NCBI GenBank assembly: GCA_016934825.1
Contig: JAFGSB010000032.1
Coordinates: 1-56,743 of the forward strand
Direction of reading: 5' to 3'
Origin: Candidatus Zhuqueibacterota bacterium
GTDB lineage: Bacteria; Zhuqueibacterota; Zhuqueibacteria; Residuimicrobiales; Krinioviventaceae
Length of the DNA stretch: 56,743 nucleotides
Made by a program: the position numbers and the translations under genes. Below the pieces are notes generated by a model, which saw only the letters and a list, made by a program, of their open reading frames with translations, made no database searches and was not told the DNA's origin. This document shows, piece after piece, positions 14,851 to 30,380 of this stretch; within the stretch, counting starts at the first letter, position 1; each line of letters begins with the position of its first letter.

Positions 14851-17499
14851 ATGAAAAAGATTCTGGTTTTTATCGTGTTGCTTTTACCGGTTGTGTCATA
14901 TTATTCGGCTGTAAATACATACGCTGCGGAAGATAGTCCGCCGGTTGGAGTGATTGAAACTCCTGAAAACAACTCTAACGTCCGGGGTACTGTTCAGATA
15001 ACGGGATGGGCCGCTGATGATAACAGCGGATTACAAATAAAAATATACCGTCAGGACGGTGCATCCCTGGTTTTTATTGGCGACGCCTGTTTTGTTGAAG
15101 GTATACGGCCCGAAATCGAACAGAGCTATCCGAAACCGCAGTATTACAGCGGTGGCTGGCAGTTTATGCTGCTGACCTATTTTTTGCCCAACCAGGGCAA
15201 CGGGGCCTATACATTACATGTTGTCGCACACGACGCCGCCGGGCAGCAGGTTATCCTGGGCACAACAAATATTATTTGTGACAATGCCAACTCGGCCAAA
15301 CCTTTTGGAATGCTGGACACACCCGCGCCGGGAGGAATAATTAACGGGACATCTTTTAAAAACTGGGGCTGGGCCCTGACTCCGCAGCCCAATTCAATTC
15401 CAACGGACGGCTCCACAATTGATGTTTTTGTGGATAGTATTAATATCGGCCATCCCTTATATAATATTTACAGGACGGACATAGCAGCTATGTTCCCTGG
15501 ATATGATAATTCCAACGGCCCCGTGGGATATTTTCACCTTAATACTTTACAATATAAAGATGGCCTTCATACAATCTACTGGAGTGTAACGGATTACGCA
15601 GGAAATACAAATACTATCGGGGACCGGTATTTCAGGATCCAGAACGGCCCGGAAATCGATATCCGGGGTAACAACAACTCTATCGCCAGCAGTGATACTA
15701 TCCCCTCCGGAGTCAGCAACACCGATTATGGAAATGTCGTGACAGACGGACGCATGCTGACCAAAACATTCGCTATTTTTAATACGGGCGCCTCGGATTT
15801 GCACTTGACCGGTTCACCGGTCGCTACGGTGAATGATGAAAATTTTAAAATAAAAAATCAACCGCCCGACGTTATAGCGGCGTTCGATACCGCCTTTTTC
15901 GATATTACTTTTCAACCTGCCGCAACGGGTCTAAAAACAGCTCTGGTCGAGATAAAAAGCGACGACGCCGACGAAAGCACCTATATATTCGGTGTGCAGG
16001 GTTGCGGTATATTAAATACGGATTCTCTCGCCCTTGTAGCCCTGTATGACAGCACCAACGGCGAAAACTGGAAAAACAATACAAACTGGCTCTCGGGACC
16101 GGTTGCAACATGGTACGGAATTACCGCATCCGGTTACAACGTGACGGCTATAAATTTAAGAGACAATAACCTGTCCGGCTACCTGCCGGCGGAAATCGGC
16201 GATCTGACACAACTGACAGTTTTGAATTTAAATATGAACCAACTGAAGGGCGAAATACCTGCCGAACTTGGCAATCTTGTTAATTTAACAAATTTAAACT
16301 TGGGTAACAACCAACTGGCGGGCGGTTTTCCATTGTTTGTAACAGATTTTGTTTCTTTACGTGAATTGAATCTGAAAAACAATCAAATAACCGGCGGCAT
16401 ACCGGCGGAGATCGGTAATTTATCCGGTTTAACGGAATTGCTGCTTGACGGCAACGAGTTGGACGGCGAAATTCCCATACAATTATGGACGCTGATGGAA
16501 TTGCAGCGTCTGGAATTAGATGGTAATCACCTTTCCGGTTCTTTGCCTACAGATATCGGGAACCTGATCAAATTAAGTTTTCTGGAACTCGACGGAAATG
16601 AATTCACCGGCAGCATCCCCGCGGAAATAGGTCAATTAACGGGACTGTACACATTATTGCTTTGCCGGAATCGATTTTCTGGATCCATTCCAGCGGAAAT
16701 TGGTTATCTGACCAACCTTCAAGAATTGGAGTTAAATAATAATATATTGTCCGGGGGCGTCCCCGCCGAATTGATAAATTTAACCAATTTGTACGAGTTA
16801 TGGATTTATAACAATCAATTGACGGATTTACCCGGCCTGTCATCCTTACCCGCGCTAAGCGATTTTTGGGTCCAGAATAACCAGTTCACGTTTGAGGATA
16901 TTGAACCCAATGCCGGGGTCCCCGGGATTATTTACGCGCCGCAGGATAGTGTCGGGAGTAAACAGGATACTGTTTTAGCGGCCGGTACGAAAATAACATT
17001 TTCGGTTGCCGTCGGCGGCAGCGCCAATGTTTATCAATGGATGAAGGACGGAATCGGTTTACCGGATTCGGACAGCAGCAGCCTTACTATCGCGGCAGCG
17101 GCGCAGTCCGACGCCGGAGATTATATCTGCAAAATCACCAATCCCATCGCGCCTGCCCTGACACTTTACAGCAGGCCGGTCCATATGACGGTAATCGGTG
17201 AAACAGATATCGAAAAACAGGCGGAACAAATACCCAAAGAATTCGCATTACGGCAGAATTACCCGAATCCGTTCAATCCGTCGACAAAAATTTTGTACGA
17301 AATACCGATGACCGACTATGTATCTTTAAAGATTTATGATATACTGGGTCGGGAAGTAGCAACCCTGATCAGCGGAAAACAGGCGGCCGGGATTTTTGAA
17401 ATTGAATGGAACGCAGGTGATTTGCCCAGCGGTATCTATATATGCCGATTCGAGTCGGCAGAGTATAGCAGATCCATGAAGCTGGTACTGCAGAAATAA
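14851..17499 (+). CDS. Secreted leucine-rich-repeat protein with C-terminal sorting domain
   Basis: 882 residues. Signal peptide (about 1-25). Then a Big/Ig-like module beginning GVIETPENNSNVRG, a second Ig-like part, a choice-of-anchor/ASPM-type module (about 265-390), and some 9-10 plant-type LRRs (about 420-690) with repeating NLxGxIPxEIGxLxxLxxLxL units. An Ig-like domain follows (about 700-790) with SDAGDYICK. The C-terminus has NYPNPFNPSTKI and LKIYDILGREV, a FlgD-like/type IX sorting domain. It is probably a surface adhesion or binding protein; no enzyme motif is seen. Confidence 0.88.
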   Translation: MKKILVFIVLLLPVVSYYSAVNTYAAEDSPPVGVIETPENNSNVRGTVQITGWAADDNSGLQIKIYRQDGASLVFIGDACFVEGIRPEIEQSYPKPQYYSGGWQFMLLTYFLPNQGNGAYTLHVVAHDAAGQQVILGTTNIICDNANSAKPFGMLDTPAPGGIINGTSFKNWGWALTPQPNSIPTDGSTIDVFVDSINIGHPLYNIYRTDIAAMFPGYDNSNGPVGYFHLNTLQYKDGLHTIYWSVTDYAGNTNTIGDRYFRIQNGPEIDIRGNNNSIASSDTIPSGVSNTDYGNVVTDGRMLTKTFAIFNTGASDLHLTGSPVATVNDENFKIKNQPPDVIAAFDTAFFDITFQPAATGLKTALVEIKSDDADESTYIFGVQGCGILNTDSLALVALYDSTNGENWKNNTNWLSGPVATWYGITASGYNVTAINLRDNNLSGYLPAEIGDLTQLTVLNLNMNQLKGEIPAELGNLVNLTNLNLGNNQLAGGFPLFVTDFVSLRELNLKNNQITGGIPAEIGNLSGLTELLLDGNELDGEIPIQLWTLMELQRLELDGNHLSGSLPTDIGNLIKLSFLELDGNEFTGSIPAEIGQLTGLYTLLLCRNRFSGSIPAEIGYLTNLQELELNNNILSGGVPAELINLTNLYELWIYNNQLTDLPGLSSLPALSDFWVQNNQFTFEDIEPNAGVPGIIYAPQDSVGSKQDTVLAAGTKITFSVAVGGSANVYQWMKDGIGLPDSDSSSLTIAAAAQSDAGDYICKITNPIAPALTLYSRPVHMTVIGETDIEKQAEQIPKEFALRQNYPNPFNPSTKILYEIPMTDYVSLKIYDILGREVATLISGKQAAGIFEIEWNAGDLPSGIYICRFESAEYSRSMKLVLQK

Positions 17500-21673: not shown

Positions 21674-22003
21674 ATGGGTAAATATGTCATTAAAAAATCA
21701 AAGGACAATCAATTTTATTTTAATTTGAAAGCGGCCAATGGTGAAATAATACTGACCAGTGAAATGTATACAAGTAAAGATGGCGCGGAAAATGGTATAG
21801 ATTCCGTAAAGAAAAATTCACCGCTTGATTCCCGTTATGAGCGAAAAGAATCAAAAAGCGGACAAAATTATTTTATCTTAAAAGCCGCTAACGGACAAAT
21901 CATCGGCACAAGCGAGATGTACACGTCAAAGCCGGGTATGGAAAACGGCATAAAATCAGTAAAAAGCAATGGACCGGGTTCATCGGTTGAGGATTTGACA
22001 TAA
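21674..22003 (+). CDS. YegP family protein with tandem DUF1508 domains
   Basis: 109 residues made of two repeats of the DUF1508/UPF0339 unit. Each repeat contains a F.LKAANG.II.TSEMYTSK..(A/M)ENGI.SVK core, the first at residues about 10-48 and the second at about 58-98. The family is of unknown function; small beta-alpha-beta modules of this kind are common in FCB bacteria. GAAAGGAA precedes the ATG. The gene sits alone between the two copies of the duplicated terminator block. Confidence 0.92.
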   Translation: MGKYVIKKSKDNQFYFNLKAANGEIILTSEMYTSKDGAENGIDSVKKNSPLDSRYERKESKSGQNYFILKAANGQIIGTSEMYTSKPGMENGIKSVKSNGPGSSVEDLT

Positions 22004-22454: not shown

Positions 22455-25400
22455 ATGGAATATATAAAAAATTTTCTTTTTGTTTTATTGTTAGTAATGA
22501 CTTCAATTACTCTGGGACAAACGGTTAACCGCCTTGATCCCTATGATATACAATACGAACCGGATGTTATACTGGTCAAGTTCCAGAAGGATGTAGAAGT
22601 ACCCTTGTTGTCAAACGGCAAACTGGGTAAAATGAGCCCCGATGGATTGGGCAAAGTTTTCAGCACCTATGGCATCACATCTGGTGAACGTCTTTTTCCT
22701 CATGTAAAAAAACAATCATCATTGCGAAAAATGAACCTCCCTGATGGCAGTCAGCAGCAGGTACCGAGCCTTTACAATATTTTCAAATTCAATGTGGATA
22801 CTAAATTTGATCCCAAAGCCGTTGCCGAAGAACTGTCGACACAACAGGATGTGGTTTATGCCGAACCCGATTACTATTTTTACGCAACCGGTACAAGCTC
22901 GGACAATCCGTTACCCTCTTTCAGTTTTTCCAATGGACTGAAAAAAACCAGTGCCACCACCCCCAATGATCCTTTGTACGGTGAACAATGGTATCTCGGA
23001 ACTTTTCCCGGCGTAAATGCCGAAGCGGCATGGGACAGCACCACCGGAGATACCACCCAGATCATTGCCATCATTGATACGGGTGTGGACTGGGACCACC
23101 CGGACCTGGATGACAATATCTGGACGAACTGGGGCGAGATCCCGGGCAACAGCATTGATGACGACTCTAATGGAAAAATTGATGACATTCGCGGCTGGGA
23201 TTTTGTCAATAACGACAATAACCCCAACGACGACAACTCGCACGGCACCCATGTGGCCGGCATTGCCGCGGCTGAAGGTAATAATGGTGTGGGCATATGC
23301 GGTGTGGCCTGGAATGCCAAGATCATGCCGGTAAAGATGCTGCAGAGTTCTGGCTCAGGCAGTTCCAGTGATCTGGCTTTGGCGATTAATTACGCGGCGG
23401 ATAACGGTGCAACCGTGATCAACATGAGTCTGGGGAGTTATGCGGAATCCATGATCGTGAAAACCGCTTTGGAAAACGCCTATTCAAGCGCGGTGCTGGT
23501 GGCTGCCGCGGGGAATGATGGATTGGATCTAGATTTACATAGTTCACCACTTTCATATTCTGCATTCTACCCTGCTTGTTATCCATTTGTATTAGGAGTC
23601 GAAGCAACTAATGATTTTGGTACTCTCGTATCTTTTTCAAATTATGATATCTCAGGACCAAAAATTGTAGGGAATAGTTCAGGATATAATTATGAAGTCA
23701 GATCTCCAGGTGTACATATTTACAATACATTCCCAAATGGGAATTATCATAATTTAAATGGAACATCTATGGCCTGCCCGGTGGTTGCGGGTGCTGTTTC
23801 TTTGTTAAAGGTTCTTTATCCAACACAGAGCACGGAACAGTTGTTTGCCAGGTTGATACAGGGTGCCAGCAGTAATATTCTTGATATTCAAGGCAGTATG
23901 GCCATTGAGTTGGAGCCGGATCTGCAATACATTACTTATACCTTGGTGGATACATTCCCTAGTTGCGATGGTGATGGTGTGGTCGATGCTGGCGAGACAC
24001 TTGAAATTTATTTGACTGTAAAAAATGTGGGAGGCTATGCGGACAGTGTTTGGTCAAAACTTCGATTAGGTGAATATGAAGATCCTTCAGTGGCTGATAT
24101 TATAGACAGTACTAGTCAGATCGGAGATATTTCTGAATACGCAACTTTAACAGGGGAATCCAATCCCTTTGTTATAGAGATTAATTCGGATGTTGTAAAT
24201 AACCGGGATATTGTGTTTGAATATGAGATTGGATATAAAAATGGAGGAATACAAGTAGGTGGAGAATTAGTATTAACTGTCCAGAAAGGTATAGAAATAG
24301 GTGGTTTAATCGACGTAAATACAGCTTGGACAAATGATAATTTTTATATTGTTGTTGATAATATTAGGGTGGGCGAGAATGTAACTGTAAGAATAGAACC
24401 GTCAACAGAGATTAGATTAAATCCAGATAAATCTATTGAAATCCGAGGTTCAATAATTGCACGAGGAAAACCAGATAGTCTAATTAAATTTATTAACAAT
24501 AGTTCTAATTTCTGGGATAGGATACATCTAAATAGTTATGCTGGTGATGATAGTTGTGTTTTTTCATATTGTTCAATTGAAGGATTTAAAAATTATGCAT
24601 TCCATTTCACCACCCAGTGTGATGTTACAATTTCAGATTGTGTCATTTTTAATGGTAATCTGACTGCGGAAAAGTGTTTTAATGTAAATAATCCAGTGGT
24701 TGATAAAATATTCAGAATAAACAGAAATGTACTTTTTGGTGATATTGGTAAAACCGCACTAGATATGGCTTTGTACAGTTACGCTACTAACATTTATTTT
24801 TGTAGCAATAACATAATAAATTCAAGAAGTTACATCCTACCACTTTCTTTCTATGCTGCTGAAGGGGGTGTAAAAAGAATTGTTGAGAATAATAATATTT
24901 TTAATAATAGCAGCACTCTATATGGTTTAAAGGATATCAGTCTTTATGGTAATCGTTCTTTTGCTGACATCAGCCAAAATTATTGGGGTACAACCGATTC
25001 AGTTGTAATAAAAAATAGAATCAATGACTTTTATTATGAAGGGAGTCGACCAATTGCTAAATTTTGGCCCTACCTTACTCAACCCTCTGATAGTGCACAT
25101 GGTATAGTCTGGAAAGTTGAATTAAACAGCCAAAATCCCCAAGAAGTAAGCATCGAACCCATCGGCATGGAAACTGTCCAATTCGATGTGTATTTTAACC
25201 GGGCCATGGATATTGATTTTGTACCTTTTTTGACTTTTGGCGTGCGTGACCCCTATACGCAGAATGTTGTCACAGACAATGCGTTCTGGTCTTCGGATTC
25301 AACCATCTGGTCCGCTTATTTTGATGTAGGTCTGGAGACAGGCGATGGTATCAATACCATCCGCGTGGCCAATGCCAAGGATACCGACCATTTTGATATC

Positions 25401-26555
25401 CCCATTGAAGATAGCCGGTTCCAATTTGTTATCCAGGCCGCCGGCGCGGCTTCAAATGAGTTTTTAGCAACTGTGGGTGTGGGCAAGGTAGAACTGGAAT
25501 GGCCCACAGCAGAGAGTGATGATGTTCTGGGTTACAACATGTACCGCATCATGCGACTCACCGACAGCACCTGGACCGATACAACGCTTATCAATACAGA
25601 GCTCATTACCGATTCAACCTATACGGATTATGCCGTAATTCCCGATTCCACCTACCGCTACTTGTACAGAGTGCTGGGCACGGACATGGTGGAGACCGAT
25701 TATTCAAAATCCGTGGCTGCCACGCCGGTGAACGCCTCCTCCGGCGACGCCAACGGCGATCTGGCCGTGAACGTGTTGGATATTGTGGCTATTGTCAACT
25801 ATATTCTGGAGGAAAATCCGCAACCCTTCCTGTTCGAAGCCGCCGATGTCAATGCAGACGGTTCGGTCAATGTTCTGGATATCGTCAGCACCGTGAACAT
25901 CATTCTTGGCGCCGGTAAACGCGTTCCGCTTGCGGACGCCGACGGCTCTGCAAACATGGAGATCAAAAACGGCAATATTTGTCTGGACAGTTCTTTACCG
26001 GTTTTTGCCATGCAGTTTACCTTGCGCGGACAGGATATGGAAAATTGTGAACTGGTTCCCACAGATGCTTTAACCGGTTTCGAGATCGCGAAAAACGAAA
26101 CTGAAGAATGGATCAAAGTGATAGCTTATTCATTGAGCGGCCATACAATAAACAGCGGCTTTCAGGAGCTTTTCAAGATCAAGGGCAACAGTGATATTAA
26201 ACTATCCGATATAGTCCTGGCCGACCGTAACGGGCTTCGTATTCCTACAGGCATATCCGAGACAATAGAGATACCTGAAAGTTATGTATTGAATCAGAAC
26301 TATCCCAATCCATTTAATCCAGAAACGACCATCAGTTATGGCTTACCCAAAGTCTCGGATGTGAAACTGGAAATCTACAATGTACTGGGTCAGCGCGTAT
26401 TTCAGTTCAAAGCAAGTGCTATGACTGCCGGTTATCATAAATACATCTGGAACGGCACCAGCGCAAGCGGGTCAATGGTGGGCAGTGGTGTCTATTTTAT
26501 CCGGTTGAAAGCCGGTGATTTTATCTCCGTTAAAAAAATGATGCTGCTACGATAA
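22455..26555 (+). CDS. Secreted subtilisin-family (S8) protease with dockerin and sorting domain
   Basis: 1366 residues from ATG 22455, which begins the signal peptide (KNFLFVLLLVMTSITLGQ) and has GTGGAG upstream; the frame is open 81 bases further. Order: propeptide-like part (about 30-140), S8 domain with Asp208 (IIDTGVD), His263 (HGTHVAG) and Ser438 (NGTSMACP), a CARDB-like part, a right-handed beta-helix-like region (about 615-875), a FN3-like part, a type I dockerin (about 1095-1150: DANGD..VNVLD and DVNADGSVNVLD, all calcium ligands present) and a C-terminal NYPNPFNPETTI sorting domain. The next gene, 14 bases downstream, encodes cohesin-like modules. Codon use turns AT-rich between about 23.52 and 25.1 kb. 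Confidence 0.9.
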   Translation: MEYIKNFLFVLLLVMTSITLGQTVNRLDPYDIQYEPDVILVKFQKDVEVPLLSNGKLGKMSPDGLGKVFSTYGITSGERLFPHVKKQSSLRKMNLPDGSQQQVPSLYNIFKFNVDTKFDPKAVAEELSTQQDVVYAEPDYYFYATGTSSDNPLPSFSFSNGLKKTSATTPNDPLYGEQWYLGTFPGVNAEAAWDSTTGDTTQIIAIIDTGVDWDHPDLDDNIWTNWGEIPGNSIDDDSNGKIDDIRGWDFVNNDNNPNDDNSHGTHVAGIAAAEGNNGVGICGVAWNAKIMPVKMLQSSGSGSSSDLALAINYAADNGATVINMSLGSYAESMIVKTALENAYSSAVLVAAAGNDGLDLDLHSSPLSYSAFYPACYPFVLGVEATNDFGTLVSFSNYDISGPKIVGNSSGYNYEVRSPGVHIYNTFPNGNYHNLNGTSMACPVVAGAVSLLKVLYPTQSTEQLFARLIQGASSNILDIQGSMAIELEPDLQYITYTLVDTFPSCDGDGVVDAGETLEIYLTVKNVGGYADSVWSKLRLGEYEDPSVADIIDSTSQIGDISEYATLTGESNPFVIEINSDVVNNRDIVFEYEIGYKNGGIQVGGELVLTVQKGIEIGGLIDVNTAWTNDNFYIVVDNIRVGENVTVRIEPSTEIRLNPDKSIEIRGSIIARGKPDSLIKFINNSSNFWDRIHLNSYAGDDSCVFSYCSIEGFKNYAFHFTTQCDVTISDCVIFNGNLTAEKCFNVNNPVVDKIFRINRNVLFGDIGKTALDMALYSYATNIYFCSNNIINSRSYILPLSFYAAEGGVKRIVENNNIFNNSSTLYGLKDISLYGNRSFADISQNYWGTTDSVVIKNRINDFYYEGSRPIAKFWPYLTQPSDSAHGIVWKVELNSQNPQEVSIEPIGMETVQFDVYFNRAMDIDFVPFLTFGVRDPYTQNVVTDNAFWSSDSTIWSAYFDVGLETGDGINTIRVANAKDTDHFDIPIEDSRFQFVIQAAGAASNEFLATVGVGKVELEWPTAESDDVLGYNMYRIMRLTDSTWTDTTLINTELITDSTYTDYAVIPDSTYRYLYRVLGTDMVETDYSKSVAATPVNASSGDANGDLAVNVLDIVAIVNYILEENPQPFLFEAADVNADGSVNVLDIVSTVNIILGAGKRVPLADADGSANMEIKNGNICLDSSLPVFAMQFTLRGQDMENCELVPTDALTGFEIAKNETEEWIKVIAYSLSGHTINSGFQELFKIKGNSDIKLSDIVLADRNGLRIPTGISETIEIPESYVLNQNYPNPFNPETTISYGLPKVSDVKLEIYNVLGQRVFQFKASAMTAGYHKYIWNGTSASGSMVGSGVYFIRLKAGDFISVKKMMLLR

Positions 26556-26569
26556 AATAATCGGAGATA

Positions 26570-29263
26570 ATGATGTTTAAAAAATACTTGACTTTGATTC
26601 TGATATTTATCCCTGTTTTTACATTCGGGCAGAATACATTAACGGTAGCTGATATGAGCAGCGCTTCCGGGGATACTGTAACGATAAGTGTAAATATTGA
26701 TAATGCTGATCCATTTGTTGTGTGTCAATTGAGCTTATTTTTGAATGATGAATTGACCTATCTGGAAGGCTCTGCATCTTTGACAGGACGTGCAGTGGAC
26801 CACTCTTTATCAGCGAATCTTGTCACTGGGGATAGTCTGCGGCTGCTTGCTTATTCTGCTAATAATACTGCTTTTACCGGAAACTCGGGAAGTGTATTAA
26901 CATTTAAACTTATTTTGGGTACCATTCCCGGGAATTATAACCTGATCCCCAAAAATGTAATTATTGGTAATGATGTTTCAGCGAATATACTTACGGGTTC
27001 GACTACTGGTACAGTAACAATTGAAACACCTGATATTGATCTGTCAACCGGTTCATTAAATTATACACGTACTGTTGTAGGCAATACCAGGAATTTATCT
27101 TTTACGATTTATAATACCGGTAATACAACATTATCAATTGACTCGATAGTTGTAGAGCCCGCTATTCATTACAGTATAACTCCGGGGTGGAACAGTACCA
27201 TAAATTCATCCAGTCAAACATCTGTTACCGTACAATTTGCTCCAATTGTTAAAGGGACGCTTGATGCTACAGTCAGAGTATATTCCGATGATCCGGATGA
27301 AATTATAAAGTCAGTTCAATTATCCGGTCTTGGTTATAAAATCAATGAATTACATGTGAACAATTTAACAACCCGTTCCGGTTTTGATACGACATTAACA
27401 GTTCGGATCAATAACCAGGAAGATATTACCGGATTCCAGTTTGATCTTGATATTCCATCCAGTATGACATTTTTAAATGAAAGTGAAGAATTGACGTCCC
27501 GTTCGAATGGACATCAAATATCCGCCAACGTCCTGGCAAATGGAGATGTTCGGATACTCGCTCATTCAATTGATCAAAATGCTTTTGTAGGGATGGATGG
27601 AGACGTTGCCAGGATTGGCTTTCATGTTGATGGATTGGGGGGTACATATAGTATAAATCCGGTCAATGTGATTTTAACAAATGATTCTGAGGAAAATGTT
27701 GTCTCTGATTCCTACAATGGTCAACTTAATATCGCATCTTCAGATATTCAATCTATTAGTACGATAAATTTCGGTACGGTTTCCGTTTTTGATACATCAA
27801 ATATTGCATTAACCATTTCAAATAATGGTAATGATACTTTATTTATAAACAATTTCACTTCAAATAATACAAATTTTTGGGCAGAGTTATCATTACCTAT
27901 GGTAATAAATCCTTCCCAGCAAAGCAATGTCAGCACATTCTTTCATAGCGATTCAGATGGTGATTTTACAGGCAAATTTAAAATACGCAGTAATGATCCG
28001 GATGAATATCCTTTTTATATTACAACTAGTGGGTCAGCTTTTATTCCCAATATTCTTATAGTTGAAGATACAACTGGTGTTAAAGGTCAAAATATCAATA
28101 TCAATTTATCAATTACCAACAATGAAAATTTTAATGCTTTTCAATTTGATCTCATCGTACCGGTTTGTTTGACTGTTAACCTTTCTTCATGTCAATTAAC
28201 AAGCAGAGCCCAGGGACATAGTTTGAGTAAAACTCAGATTGAATCCAACAAGTACAGATTTTTGGCCTATTCTACTAATAACGATATATTTACCGGGGAC
28301 AGTGGCCCGGTATTACAAGTAAACTGTGATGTAAGCGGCTCACCCGGTGCATACACATTAAGTACCGAAAATCAGATCATTGGTGGCACGGACGGACAAA
28401 ATGTTTTTAGCTCAGCAGTAAACGGTACATTTACATTAGATACAATACCCTCAAAAGTTGAAAACATTGTTCCCCAAATCATTGGTAATGACCTTAAATT
28501 GACATGGCAGACCACGTCAGGAGCAGCAACCTATAATATTTATAAGGGTACAACAACAGGTTTCGTACCTGATAAGGCTGGTGGCTCTAATCGAGTTGCC
28601 ACGAATCACTCAAGTCTGAATTGGACAGATACGGGTGTTATTGGAAACCCGGCCATCAATTATTTTTATATTATTACAGGTGTTTCAAGCGGTGGTAGTG
28701 AAGGAGAAAATTCAGATGTTATTGGAGAGTTTGATTTTCAATTGTATTCACCATCAACCGGTTACAATACCATTACGTTTGTTTTGGATGATCCCAATAT
28801 AACCACAGCTGCCGAATTGGGTGCTGCTATACCCAATTGCACAGCAGTTAAAGCCTGGGATGCTTCTACTCAAGGATATCCCTCCCTTGCTTTCAAAATC
28901 GGGGAACAGTGGTTCGGTTCTGCAGAAATTCAGGTAGGCAAGTCTTATTATGTAAATGTTACGTCACAATGCGTTTTATCTTGTATAGGAACAGTTAACG
29001 CATTCCCAGAATACAGTCTGCTTTGCCCTTCAACCGGTTATAACACAATTGCGATTCCTTTCACGAATAATCTAACAACTGCCACCCAGTTAGGAGAAAA
29101 TATACCGAATTGTACTGCGGTGAAAGAATGGGATCCTTCAAATCAATCTTATACATCTTTGGCTTTTAAAATCGAAGAATCATGGTTGGGGAGCGCCAGT
29201 ATAAAATGCGGATATACGTATTATATAAATGTTACTGAAAATGGAAGCTGGGATGGGAATTAA
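26570..29263 (+). CDS. Secreted protein with three cohesin-like modules
   Basis: 897 residues. Signal peptide (about 1-21), then three cohesin-like modules (about 22-155, 256-390, 493-625) sharing F(Q)FDL...LTSRA.GH.LS.....G..R.LAYS.N...FTG..G.V, alternating with two choice-of-anchor/ASPM-type modules (about 156-255 and 390-490). A FN3-like domain (about 627-725) precedes two 80-residue repeats with PSTGYNTI...IPNCTAVK.WD...SLAFKI. The C-terminus has no recognisable sorting motif. It lies 14 bases after the dockerin protease, so the two are co-transcribed and are likely partners in a surface complex. The exact ATG (26570 or 26573) is ambiguous. Confidence 0.8.
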   Translation: MMFKKYLTLILIFIPVFTFGQNTLTVADMSSASGDTVTISVNIDNADPFVVCQLSLFLNDELTYLEGSASLTGRAVDHSLSANLVTGDSLRLLAYSANNTAFTGNSGSVLTFKLILGTIPGNYNLIPKNVIIGNDVSANILTGSTTGTVTIETPDIDLSTGSLNYTRTVVGNTRNLSFTIYNTGNTTLSIDSIVVEPAIHYSITPGWNSTINSSSQTSVTVQFAPIVKGTLDATVRVYSDDPDEIIKSVQLSGLGYKINELHVNNLTTRSGFDTTLTVRINNQEDITGFQFDLDIPSSMTFLNESEELTSRSNGHQISANVLANGDVRILAHSIDQNAFVGMDGDVARIGFHVDGLGGTYSINPVNVILTNDSEENVVSDSYNGQLNIASSDIQSISTINFGTVSVFDTSNIALTISNNGNDTLFINNFTSNNTNFWAELSLPMVINPSQQSNVSTFFHSDSDGDFTGKFKIRSNDPDEYPFYITTSGSAFIPNILIVEDTTGVKGQNININLSITNNENFNAFQFDLIVPVCLTVNLSSCQLTSRAQGHSLSKTQIESNKYRFLAYSTNNDIFTGDSGPVLQVNCDVSGSPGAYTLSTENQIIGGTDGQNVFSSAVNGTFTLDTIPSKVENIVPQIIGNDLKLTWQTTSGAATYNIYKGTTTGFVPDKAGGSNRVATNHSSLNWTDTGVIGNPAINYFYIITGVSSGGSEGENSDVIGEFDFQLYSPSTGYNTITFVLDDPNITTAAELGAAIPNCTAVKAWDASTQGYPSLAFKIGEQWFGSAEIQVGKSYYVNVTSQCVLSCIGTVNAFPEYSLLCPSTGYNTIAIPFTNNLTTATQLGENIPNCTAVKEWDPSNQSYTSLAFKIEESWLGSASIKCGYTYYINVTENGSWDGN

Positions 29264-29345: not shown

Positions 29346-30380
29346 ATGAAACAGAGTGTTACAGATCAAAAAACAGATTTTTTTAGAGGAAAAATGAAAA
29401 ACTGGATCGTATGCATTGTATTATCCAGTATCATGCTGCCGATTCTGGCTTTTGCCGGTGGTACACCCCATAGCGTCATAGGTACCGTTCATAATAATGA
29501 TGGATCGAATCCAGGGCAAAGTGATCTTACAATTAGTGTCTATATCACCTATGCAGGAACAGGTGATTCCAATACATTAACCAGAGATGCTGTTAACGTT
29601 CTATATGGTAGTGAAACCCTAATGGGTATTCCCTGGTATGAAATCAAGGCAGAAGCTTTTAGTGGTACCTGGTCTATCGGTGATGTTATGCATATTAGTT
29701 TCACCAATACTGCCAATGGCGAATCCAGTTCAACGGATGTTGTCTTGGATGCCTCAGATCCACAATTAGCAGGAGATACATCTTTACCTGTTGAACTGAG
29801 TACTTTTATTGCAAAATTTGTCAATAATTCAGTTATTTTAAATTGGGACACTGCATCCGAAATTGACAATTCTGGATTTAACCTATTCCGAAGTACAGAT
29901 AAAGGAAACAATTTCATACTTTTGAATACAAGATTGATAGATGGCGCCGGTACTTCATCATCATCCAATTCTTATTCTTTTTCAGATAAGAATGTAATAA
30001 ATGGTGTTACATATTACTACAAATTAGAGTCAGTAAGTCTTTCAGGAACAAAAATAGTAGCAGGTTTAACATCAATAACAATAGAAATTGAAGAAATTCC
30101 TGAAACCTTTGATCTGGCTCAAAATTATCCCAATCCATTCAATCCGGAAACCATGATACGATACAGTGTAGCTAAACAATCCAAAGTAAATATCTCTATC
30201 TATAATTTATTGGGACAAAAACTGATCACTCTGGTGAATAAAAACCAAGCTCCTGGCAACTATTCCCTAAACTGGTTTGGAAAAGATGTTAATGGTAATA
30301 ATCTGGGAACAGGGATCTATATTCTGCAGATGACAGCTGATAGTTTTGTTCAAACACGCAAGATCGCACTGATTAGATAA
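29346..30380 (+). CDS. Secreted protein with FN3-like module and C-terminal sorting domain
   Basis: 344 residues. The signal peptide lies at about 17-38 (WIVCIVLSSIMLPILAFA), so an internal ATG at 29394 is an alternative start, but AGGGAGG immediately precedes ATG 29346. Residues about 40-140 are an unrecognised beta-rich domain. PVELSTFIAKF...LNWDTASEIDNSGFNLFRS is the FN3-like module often placed before sorting domains. The C-terminus (NYPNPFNPETMI, ISIYNLLGQKL) is the FlgD-like sorting domain. It follows the cohesin gene by about 80 bases and ends at a clear terminator, so it may belong to the same operon. Confidence 0.85.
   Translation: MKQSVTDQKTDFFRGKMKNWIVCIVLSSIMLPILAFAGGTPHSVIGTVHNNDGSNPGQSDLTISVYITYAGTGDSNTLTRDAVNVLYGSETLMGIPWYEIKAEAFSGTWSIGDVMHISFTNTANGESSSTDVVLDASDPQLAGDTSLPVELSTFIAKFVNNSVILNWDTASEIDNSGFNLFRSTDKGNNFILLNTRLIDGAGTSSSSNSYSFSDKNVINGVTYYYKLESVSLSGTKIVAGLTSITIEIEEIPETFDLAQNYPNPFNPETMIRYSVAKQSKVNISIYNLLGQKLITLVNKNQAPGNYSLNWFGKDVNGNNLGTGIYILQMTADSFVQTRKIALIR

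Follow-up and report, generated by a model that had tools for sequence, protein, structure and literature searches.

A likely cohesin-dockerin assembly for proteolysis with type IX export in Calditrichota and Bacteroidota

INTRODUCTION

Enzyme complexes assembled through cohesins and dockerins are, to our knowledge, almost confined to polysaccharide degradation in Firmicutes. In cellulosomes of the Clostridium thermocellum type, secreted enzymes bearing a dockerin duplex are joined to a non-catalytic scaffold with several cohesins. Clostridium perfringens has non-cellulosomal cohesins and dockerins on secreted enzymes (X82 modules, GH84/GH33), with one cohesin per enzyme and pairwise complexes (PMC12997984). 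The Limousia mucinolysome, also from Firmicutes, is a non-cellulose complex that includes dockerin-bearing peptidases, its enzymes being mainly glycoside hydrolases for mucin (PMC12997984). The same 2026 paper states that no cellulosome systems had been described outside Firmicutes (earlier work in subscription journals may be missed here), and reports 78 human-gut Bacteroidetes MAGs with both modules, a result it calls surprising and in need of study. None is reported in one cellulolytic Bacteroidetes lineage with the type IX secretion system (T9SS) (PMC5831590). A precedent is Ca. Stygibacter (Cloacimonadota), for which a cellulosome-like complex was proposed by inference from MAGs (PMC8542988). 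There, dockerins occur on S8 and C25 peptidases and the cohesin scaffoldin has a T9SS-type CTD, but GH18 and GH57 enzymes are also present, and the 3755-aa scaffoldin carries carbohydrate-binding domains. A dedicated protease-scaffold pair spanning two phyla is not described in the relevant sections of that paper.

We analyse such a pair on a 56,743-nucleotide stretch of DNA ('the window'), which is contig C70 of a 5.39-Mb host genome. It resembles the cellulosome in its enzyme-borne dockerin duplex and its multi-cohesin non-catalytic scaffold, both predicted to be secreted, and the host meets the cellulosome criterion of having such a scaffold and a dockerin enzyme in the same genome. It differs in having proteolytic cargo rather than glycoside hydrolases, Gram-negative T9SS export, a sorting tail on the enzyme, cohesin sequences too distant for the Pfam cut-off, and no CBM found on the scaffold in Pfam/NCBIfam scans (the duplicated domain at the C terminus could contain one that went unrecognised). 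Where C. perfringens enzymes carry their own cohesin, the window has a separate, non-catalytic, triple-cohesin scaffold. Identity as a cellulosome proper was rejected, no glycoside hydrolase cargo having been found (S8 in the window, and four relatives searched). Having failed the cargo criterion, the window system is not a strict member of the cellulosome family, though it most likely works like one. A T9SS-exported proteolytic complex, which we regard as a likely cellulosome-like variant outside Firmicutes, rests on binding that is inferred and not shown.

THE GENE PAIR

Features of the locus are listed in Table 1. The first gene encodes a subtilase (P0001) that meets the Peptidase S8 triad criterion with D209/H264/S439 (P0001 numbering, motif positions). 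The second encodes a scaffold with three repeats, each about 130 residues long, that are separated by two Ig-like domains. The gap between them reads AATAATCGGAGATA and includes the ribosome-binding GGAG.

A preliminary description, made from sequence alone, had given the coordinates of the two-gene region and the 14-base gap, and had proposed a complete type I dockerin duplex on the subtilase and three cohesin-like modules in the next gene; all of this held. It had not mentioned the two choice-of-anchor-D domains, the FN3 domain, the duplicated domain of about 80 aa, the lack of a T9SS tail on the scaffold, or a fourth, small cohesin-like domain in the protease, between its dockerin and T9SS tail.

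Table 1. Features of the protease-scaffold locus, in window coordinates
Feature	Coordinates	Strand	Evidence or remarks
Dockerin-bearing subtilase (P0001)	22455..26555	+	1366 aa from ATG 22455; Pfam Peptidase_S8 E 1.3e-53
Peptidase S8 catalytic domain	23058..23867	+	Pfam, residues 203-472
Type I dockerin duplex of subtilase	25716..25910	+	Pfam Dockerin_1 E 5.2e-10; PDB dockerin matches
Small cohesin-like domain directly after dockerin	25911..26279	+	AF2, Foldseek, hhalign
T9SS type A sorting domain of protease	26301..26543	+	TIGR04183 E 4.4e-11; Pfam Por_Secre_tail E 3.7e-7
Intergenic gap, 14 nt	26556..26569	+	GGAG ribosome-binding site at 26563-26566, from sequence
Three-cohesin scaffold, 897 aa	26570..29263	+	N-terminal hydrophobic signal-peptide-like segment; no T9SS tail
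Cohesin module 1	26633..27025	+	AF2 pLDDT 97.1; Z 18.0 to 6kge_A
Choice-of-anchor-D / ASH-like Ig domain 1	27029..27334	+	NF012200 E 7.4e-18, two stretches; Pfam
Cohesin module 2	27341..27736	+	Profile E 4e-46; genome search E 1.6e-44
Choice-of-anchor-D / HYDIN-like Ig domain 2	27758..28027	+	Pfam PF22544, residues 397-486
Cohesin module 3	28046..28453	+	Profile E 6e-47; genome search E 2.2e-45
FN3-like domain of scaffold	28475..28714	+	PDB 3mpc_A E 8.9e-7, residues 636-715
Duplicated ~80-aa 'GYNTI' domain, scaffold C terminus	28742..29254	+	Matches to L044-L046, L016-L018
Small T9SS-tailed protein	29346..30380	+	82 nt downstream of scaffold gene

THE SCAFFOLD REPEATS ARE COHESINS

The repeats lie at residues 22-151, 259-388 and 494-623 and each matches the family profile at E < 1e-44. 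The AlphaFold2 model of module 1 superposes on cohesin 6kge_A with an rmsd of 1.6 over 128 residues (VIA-align), and in both Foldseek and VIA-align the first 50 rows are all cohesins (best E 1.6e-9). The fold is closest to type I cohesins (CaCohA2, CipA), and C. perfringens-type cohesins (2jh2, 2vo8) are also matched. Chance similarity of the repeats to cohesins was rejected on the fold Z of 18. The preliminary description would have been refuted had the repeats lacked the cohesin fold; it passed. Modules 2 and 3 were assigned by profile, the fold model having been made for module 1. All three repeats are cohesins.

Profile A3, an alignment of 25 modules from eight loci, gave 19 matches in PDB, 17 of them cohesins or scaffoldins, while a PDB search with one divergent cohesin as the query gave none. 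Singly, 10 of the 25 modules match Pfam Cohesin (best E 6e-9).

The preliminary description had also proposed a search of both proteins with Pfam models PF00963 (Cohesin) and PF00404 (dockerin). The dockerin passes. The full scaffold has no match to Pfam Cohesin even at E 10, Pfam showing only its two choice-of-anchor-D/ASH-like domains. Module 1 in isolation matches PF00963 over its full length (E 8e-4), scoring 20.1 bits, under the gathering score of 24.1 bits, a threshold that concerns detection and not structure. Pfam scans of the scaffold and of the host genome thus miss the three cohesins because they score below threshold, not because they are absent. Some relatives pass the cut-off (L093, 34.1 bits).

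THE DOCKERIN AND THE DOMAIN BEHIND IT

Pfam Dockerin_1 covers subtilase residues 1098-1145 at 39.8 bits, against a cut-off of 22.9. Both F-hand loops have the D-x-N-x-D...D calcium ligands, which are kept in nine orthologues; mean column identity in the nine-sequence dockerin alignment is 72%. In known type I dockerins, positions 10 and 11 contact the cohesin. These are Val-Leu in both F-hands of P0001, and among 87 dockerins of relatives, with differing cargo, they are mostly Val/Ile and Leu in both F-hands, the calcium ligands being nearly invariant. Equal residue pairs in the two halves would permit a dual binding mode of the clostridial kind, a possibility inferred without binding data.

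MAFFT aligned the roughly 120 residues between the dockerin and the T9SS tail with cohesins, which prompted a dedicated test. Profile-profile comparison with the scaffold cohesins (hhalign, A3) gave E 5.5e-6 and probability 86. The AF2 model (pLDDT 88.6) retrieved only cohesins or cohesin-like modules at ranks 1-18 in Foldseek (best E 1.9e-5), with a best Z of 12.1, to 6kgc_A. As TM-scores were only about 0.5-0.6, we regard the domain as a reduced or divergent member of the cohesin fold. When the window is compared with a Caldithrix orthologue, the catalytic domains are 69% identical and the dockerins 72%, against 20% for the post-dockerin domain; the T9SS tails share 52% and the cohesins 28-46%. 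In these two Calditrichota orthologues the dockerin has thus changed no more than the catalytic domain, unlike the domain behind it.

HOST GENOME CENSUS AND EXPORT MACHINERY

A genome-wide dockerin count, another check named in the preliminary description, was made with profiles of the window subtype. The single dockerin found sits in the window protease (E 2.5e-33; next best 3.8e-8), and the three cohesins found are those of the window scaffold (next cohesin 1.2e-7). The next-best dockerin belongs to a second subtilase, on contig C57, and its recognition positions hold different residues. By Pfam, the host genome contains five dockerins and eight cohesins in total, several in one polypeptide, so cross-talk with the window pair cannot be excluded. 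That second subtilase (L052:9562-11187, G000:C57) has 541 aa, with the dockerin at the very C terminus and no T9SS tail. Also in the host, three adjacent genes (L053:8215-12425, G000:C106) mix cohesin and dockerin modules of another subtype with T9SS tails.

SprA is encoded in the host genome (E 2.7e-44), indicating that T9SS machinery is present. The T9SS cargo criterion, a sorting domain plus the machinery, is met by the protease and not by the window scaffold, in which Pfam/NCBIfam scans found no T9SS domain. The type IX-like sorting suggested in the preliminary description therefore held, with the correction that the tail is on the protease. The recognisable surface signal at the locus is thus on the enzyme, not the scaffold. 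Most scaffolds of relatives do end in a T9SS tail, unlike that of the window.

Dockerins can also stand alone at the C terminus: in the sampled Bacteroidales genomes 31 distinct dockerin proteins stop within 15 residues of the dockerin, leaving no room for a T9SS tail. A signal-peptide-like N terminus was called in all 28 bare-dockerin proteins with complete starts, versus 88 of 185 other ORFs. The call is a simple hydrophobicity rule, crude and indicative only.

CONSERVATION OF THE PAIR

A dockerin protease paired with a multi-cohesin scaffold occurs in two phyla, Calditrichota and Bacteroidota. Within the host's class, the complete gene pair was found in just one other genome, the Caldithrix MAG N075bin58 (G039), which places the host most probably in Calditrichota. 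In this MAG the same two genes are 17 bases apart, and identity to the window is 36% for the scaffold and 49% for the protease. The pair is also found in Bacteroidales, Prolixibacteraceae and other Bacteroidota MAGs, one cluster (L067/L069) having four subtilase-dockerins, two triple-cohesin scaffolds and one single-cohesin protein. A search for related loci with the single scaffold sequence found nothing; with a two-sequence scaffold alignment it found seven.

A dockerin protein is encoded immediately before the multi-cohesin gene, or with just a single-cohesin gene in between, at 15 of the 16 such loci whose upstream DNA could be used (the window, L066, the L067/L069 cluster, L070, L071, L072, L090, L091, L092, L093, L094, L152, L153, L158 and L159). 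The sole exception is L155, a 7-cohesin scaffold without a neighbouring dockerin gene. The count is not fully independent, since G142, G338 and G246 look like close relatives. Cargo at L093, L094 and several later loci is not subtilase, and partners at some divergent scaffold loci are not proteases (Omp28-like, InlB repeats).

Presence was also matched between genomes. In the 393 genomes of one Bacteroidota relative's order (that of G066) the scaffold was found in 8 and the dockerin in 22, all 8 being among the 22 (hypergeometric 2e-11, ignoring phylogeny and relatedness). Dockerin and cohesin searches in the large genome set scored at most 15 candidates per genome. A complete subtilase-dockerin is encoded in G091 and G204, yet neither yielded a cohesin of the window type at E 1e-6; in G120 and G442 the contig stops inside or just past the protease gene. 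With the trees of the protease and of the scaffold resolved only in part, we claim neither gene transfer between phyla nor strict co-descent.

EXPANDED SYSTEMS AND THEIR CARGO

Two MAGs of the order Bacteroidales have larger sets: 24 cohesins in G071 (L101-L111, L152, L155) and 29 in G116 (L120-L133, L153, L154), with scaffolds of at least 8 and at least 10 modules. Each has at least 15 dockerin proteins. Among the 16-17 examined per genome, recognisable enzymatic cargo is almost all peptidase, including the gingipain family C25: Peptidase C25 (5), C10 (3), S8 (4), M14 (2) and M28 (1), along with one peptidyl-arginine deiminase (PAD) and one PNGase-like C-terminal domain. Many further peptidases in these genomes carry a bare C-terminal dockerin, and many dockerin carriers have no recognised catalytic domain. 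Per-protein Pfam tables (E 1e-4) for the dockerin proteins of four relatives contain no glycoside hydrolase domain.

Cargo differs in G142 and G338, comprising PKD/Ig repeats, BNR repeats (two such proteins may have a sialidase-like fold) and N-terminal dockerins on Fib_succ_major proteins. Calling the system proteolytic is therefore apt for the window-type pair and for G071/G116, but not for all genomes that have the dockerin. The N-terminal dockerin plus Fib_succ_major (PF09603) family (L112-L119, L134-L145) has many members per genome and no clear enzyme.

G116 also encodes short cohesin-dockerin proteins (L126) resembling adaptor scaffoldins. Short proteins from relatives in the order (L048:5163-6476, L049:9350-10648, L050:325-1485, L051:8869-10026) have one module-3-like cohesin and a C-terminal dockerin-like segment; they could be self-docking or adaptor proteins.

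PROPOSED ASSEMBLY

Our main reading, to which we give a probability of about 0.72, is that the locus encodes a small, cellulosome-like, T9SS-exported assembly for proteolysis. Sec would bring both subtilase and scaffold into the periplasm, and the subtilase would leave by the type IX system through its C-terminal sorting domain. Its calcium-binding dockerin would plug into the scaffold cohesins, so that up to three subtilases may sit side by side at the cell surface on one scaffold, there to digest proteinaceous material. In relatives, the cassette of dockerin, cohesin-like domain and T9SS tail would attach several subtilases, or cargo of other kinds, to scaffolds with anywhere from 3 to at least 10 cohesins.

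The folds, domain order, conserved neighbourhood, genome-level uniqueness, cargo types and presence of SprA are shown. Binding, stoichiometry, surface location and substrate are inferred, and there is no model of the complex. Conserved gene order in two phyla and the peptidase-dominated cargo of relatives fit a scaffold for a proteolytic complex, as the preliminary description had inferred. Caldithrix abyssi grows on proteinaceous substrates (PMC5317091), which is consistent with a part in digesting protein but is no proof of it.

Several points count against this reading. The path of the tailless window scaffold across the outer membrane is unexplained. Two genomes with the subtilase-dockerin lack a detected cohesin, one scaffold (L155) lacks an adjacent dockerin, and some scaffold partners are not proteases. 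The protease's own cohesin-like domain could conceivably receive the dockerin.

If true, a dedicated proteolytic version present in both Calditrichota and Bacteroidota would carry the cohesin-dockerin principle over to protein digestion, and it would speak directly to the open question of PMC12997984 concerning Bacteroidetes genomes with both modules. The locus offers a minimal model with one enzyme and three sockets, as well as a new cohesin-dockerin pair whose binding can be studied.

A bolder reading is possible, though much less likely than the main one and not our principal claim, in which the dockerin is a transplantable ticket for T9SS, docking substituting for a sorting domain. Enzymes with a bare dockerin would dock in the periplasm onto a T9SS-tailed scaffold and leave as a folded complex; the window would be the mirror case, its tailless scaffold being carried out by the protease with the sorting domain. 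Export in this way is inferred. The locus opens to experiment the question of how enzymes that lack a T9SS tail are exported.

ALTERNATIVE EXPLANATIONS

Since the protease has a cohesin-like domain of its own, docking in cis, or head to tail between protease molecules, remains a live rival, albeit an unlikely one. The scaffold cohesins would then serve something else, or the scaffold would just cap chains. In its favour, the domain behind the dockerin is cohesin-like and accompanies the dockerin in T9SS-tailed carriers. Against it, this domain diverges fast (20% versus 72% for the dockerin), unlike a conserved binding surface; it is absent behind the bare C-terminal dockerins of expanded genomes, which have similar recognition residues; and the constant pairing with multi-cohesin genes is left unexplained.

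The protease could instead be a maturation or processing enzyme of the neighbouring surface protein, the dockerin-cohesin contact being brief, which we think very unlikely. Processing systems commonly place a protease gene next to that of a single secreted multidomain protein, and the two genes are closely adjacent. Scaffold-bound clients better account for clusters with as many as four proteases for two scaffolds (L067/L069) and for the relatives' large sets of unlinked dockerin peptidases from five families, and cargo at the same gene position can be non-protease. As a main reading it was rejected on the many-client clusters.

That the modules are structural spacers or adhesion modules without mutual affinity, the pair being kept for a shared attachment role, has some support, cohesins and dockerins occurring in many non-cellulosomal proteins and the host having others, some in one polypeptide, but is also very unlikely given that 87 dockerins with unrelated cargo keep the recognition positions in both F-hands, and that dockerin presence is matched with cohesins across genomes.

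NEIGHBOURING GENES

The GYNTI domain of the scaffold is common to other large secreted proteins of the host genome and its class. Elsewhere (L059, L061, L062), GYNTI-domain proteins are immediately followed by homologues of the small T9SS-tailed protein encoded after the scaffold, and the window copy might be an accessory or anchor. That GYNTI proteins often directly precede such a small T9SS-tailed protein makes a second conserved pair, maybe an anchoring couple. Upstream of the protease-scaffold pair, positions 14851-17499 encode a leucine-rich-repeat surface protein with choice-of-anchor-D and Ig domains and a T9SS tail, and positions 21674-22003 a 109-aa protein whose two tandem repeats of about 48 residues resemble, by sequence only, the YegP/DUF1508 family.
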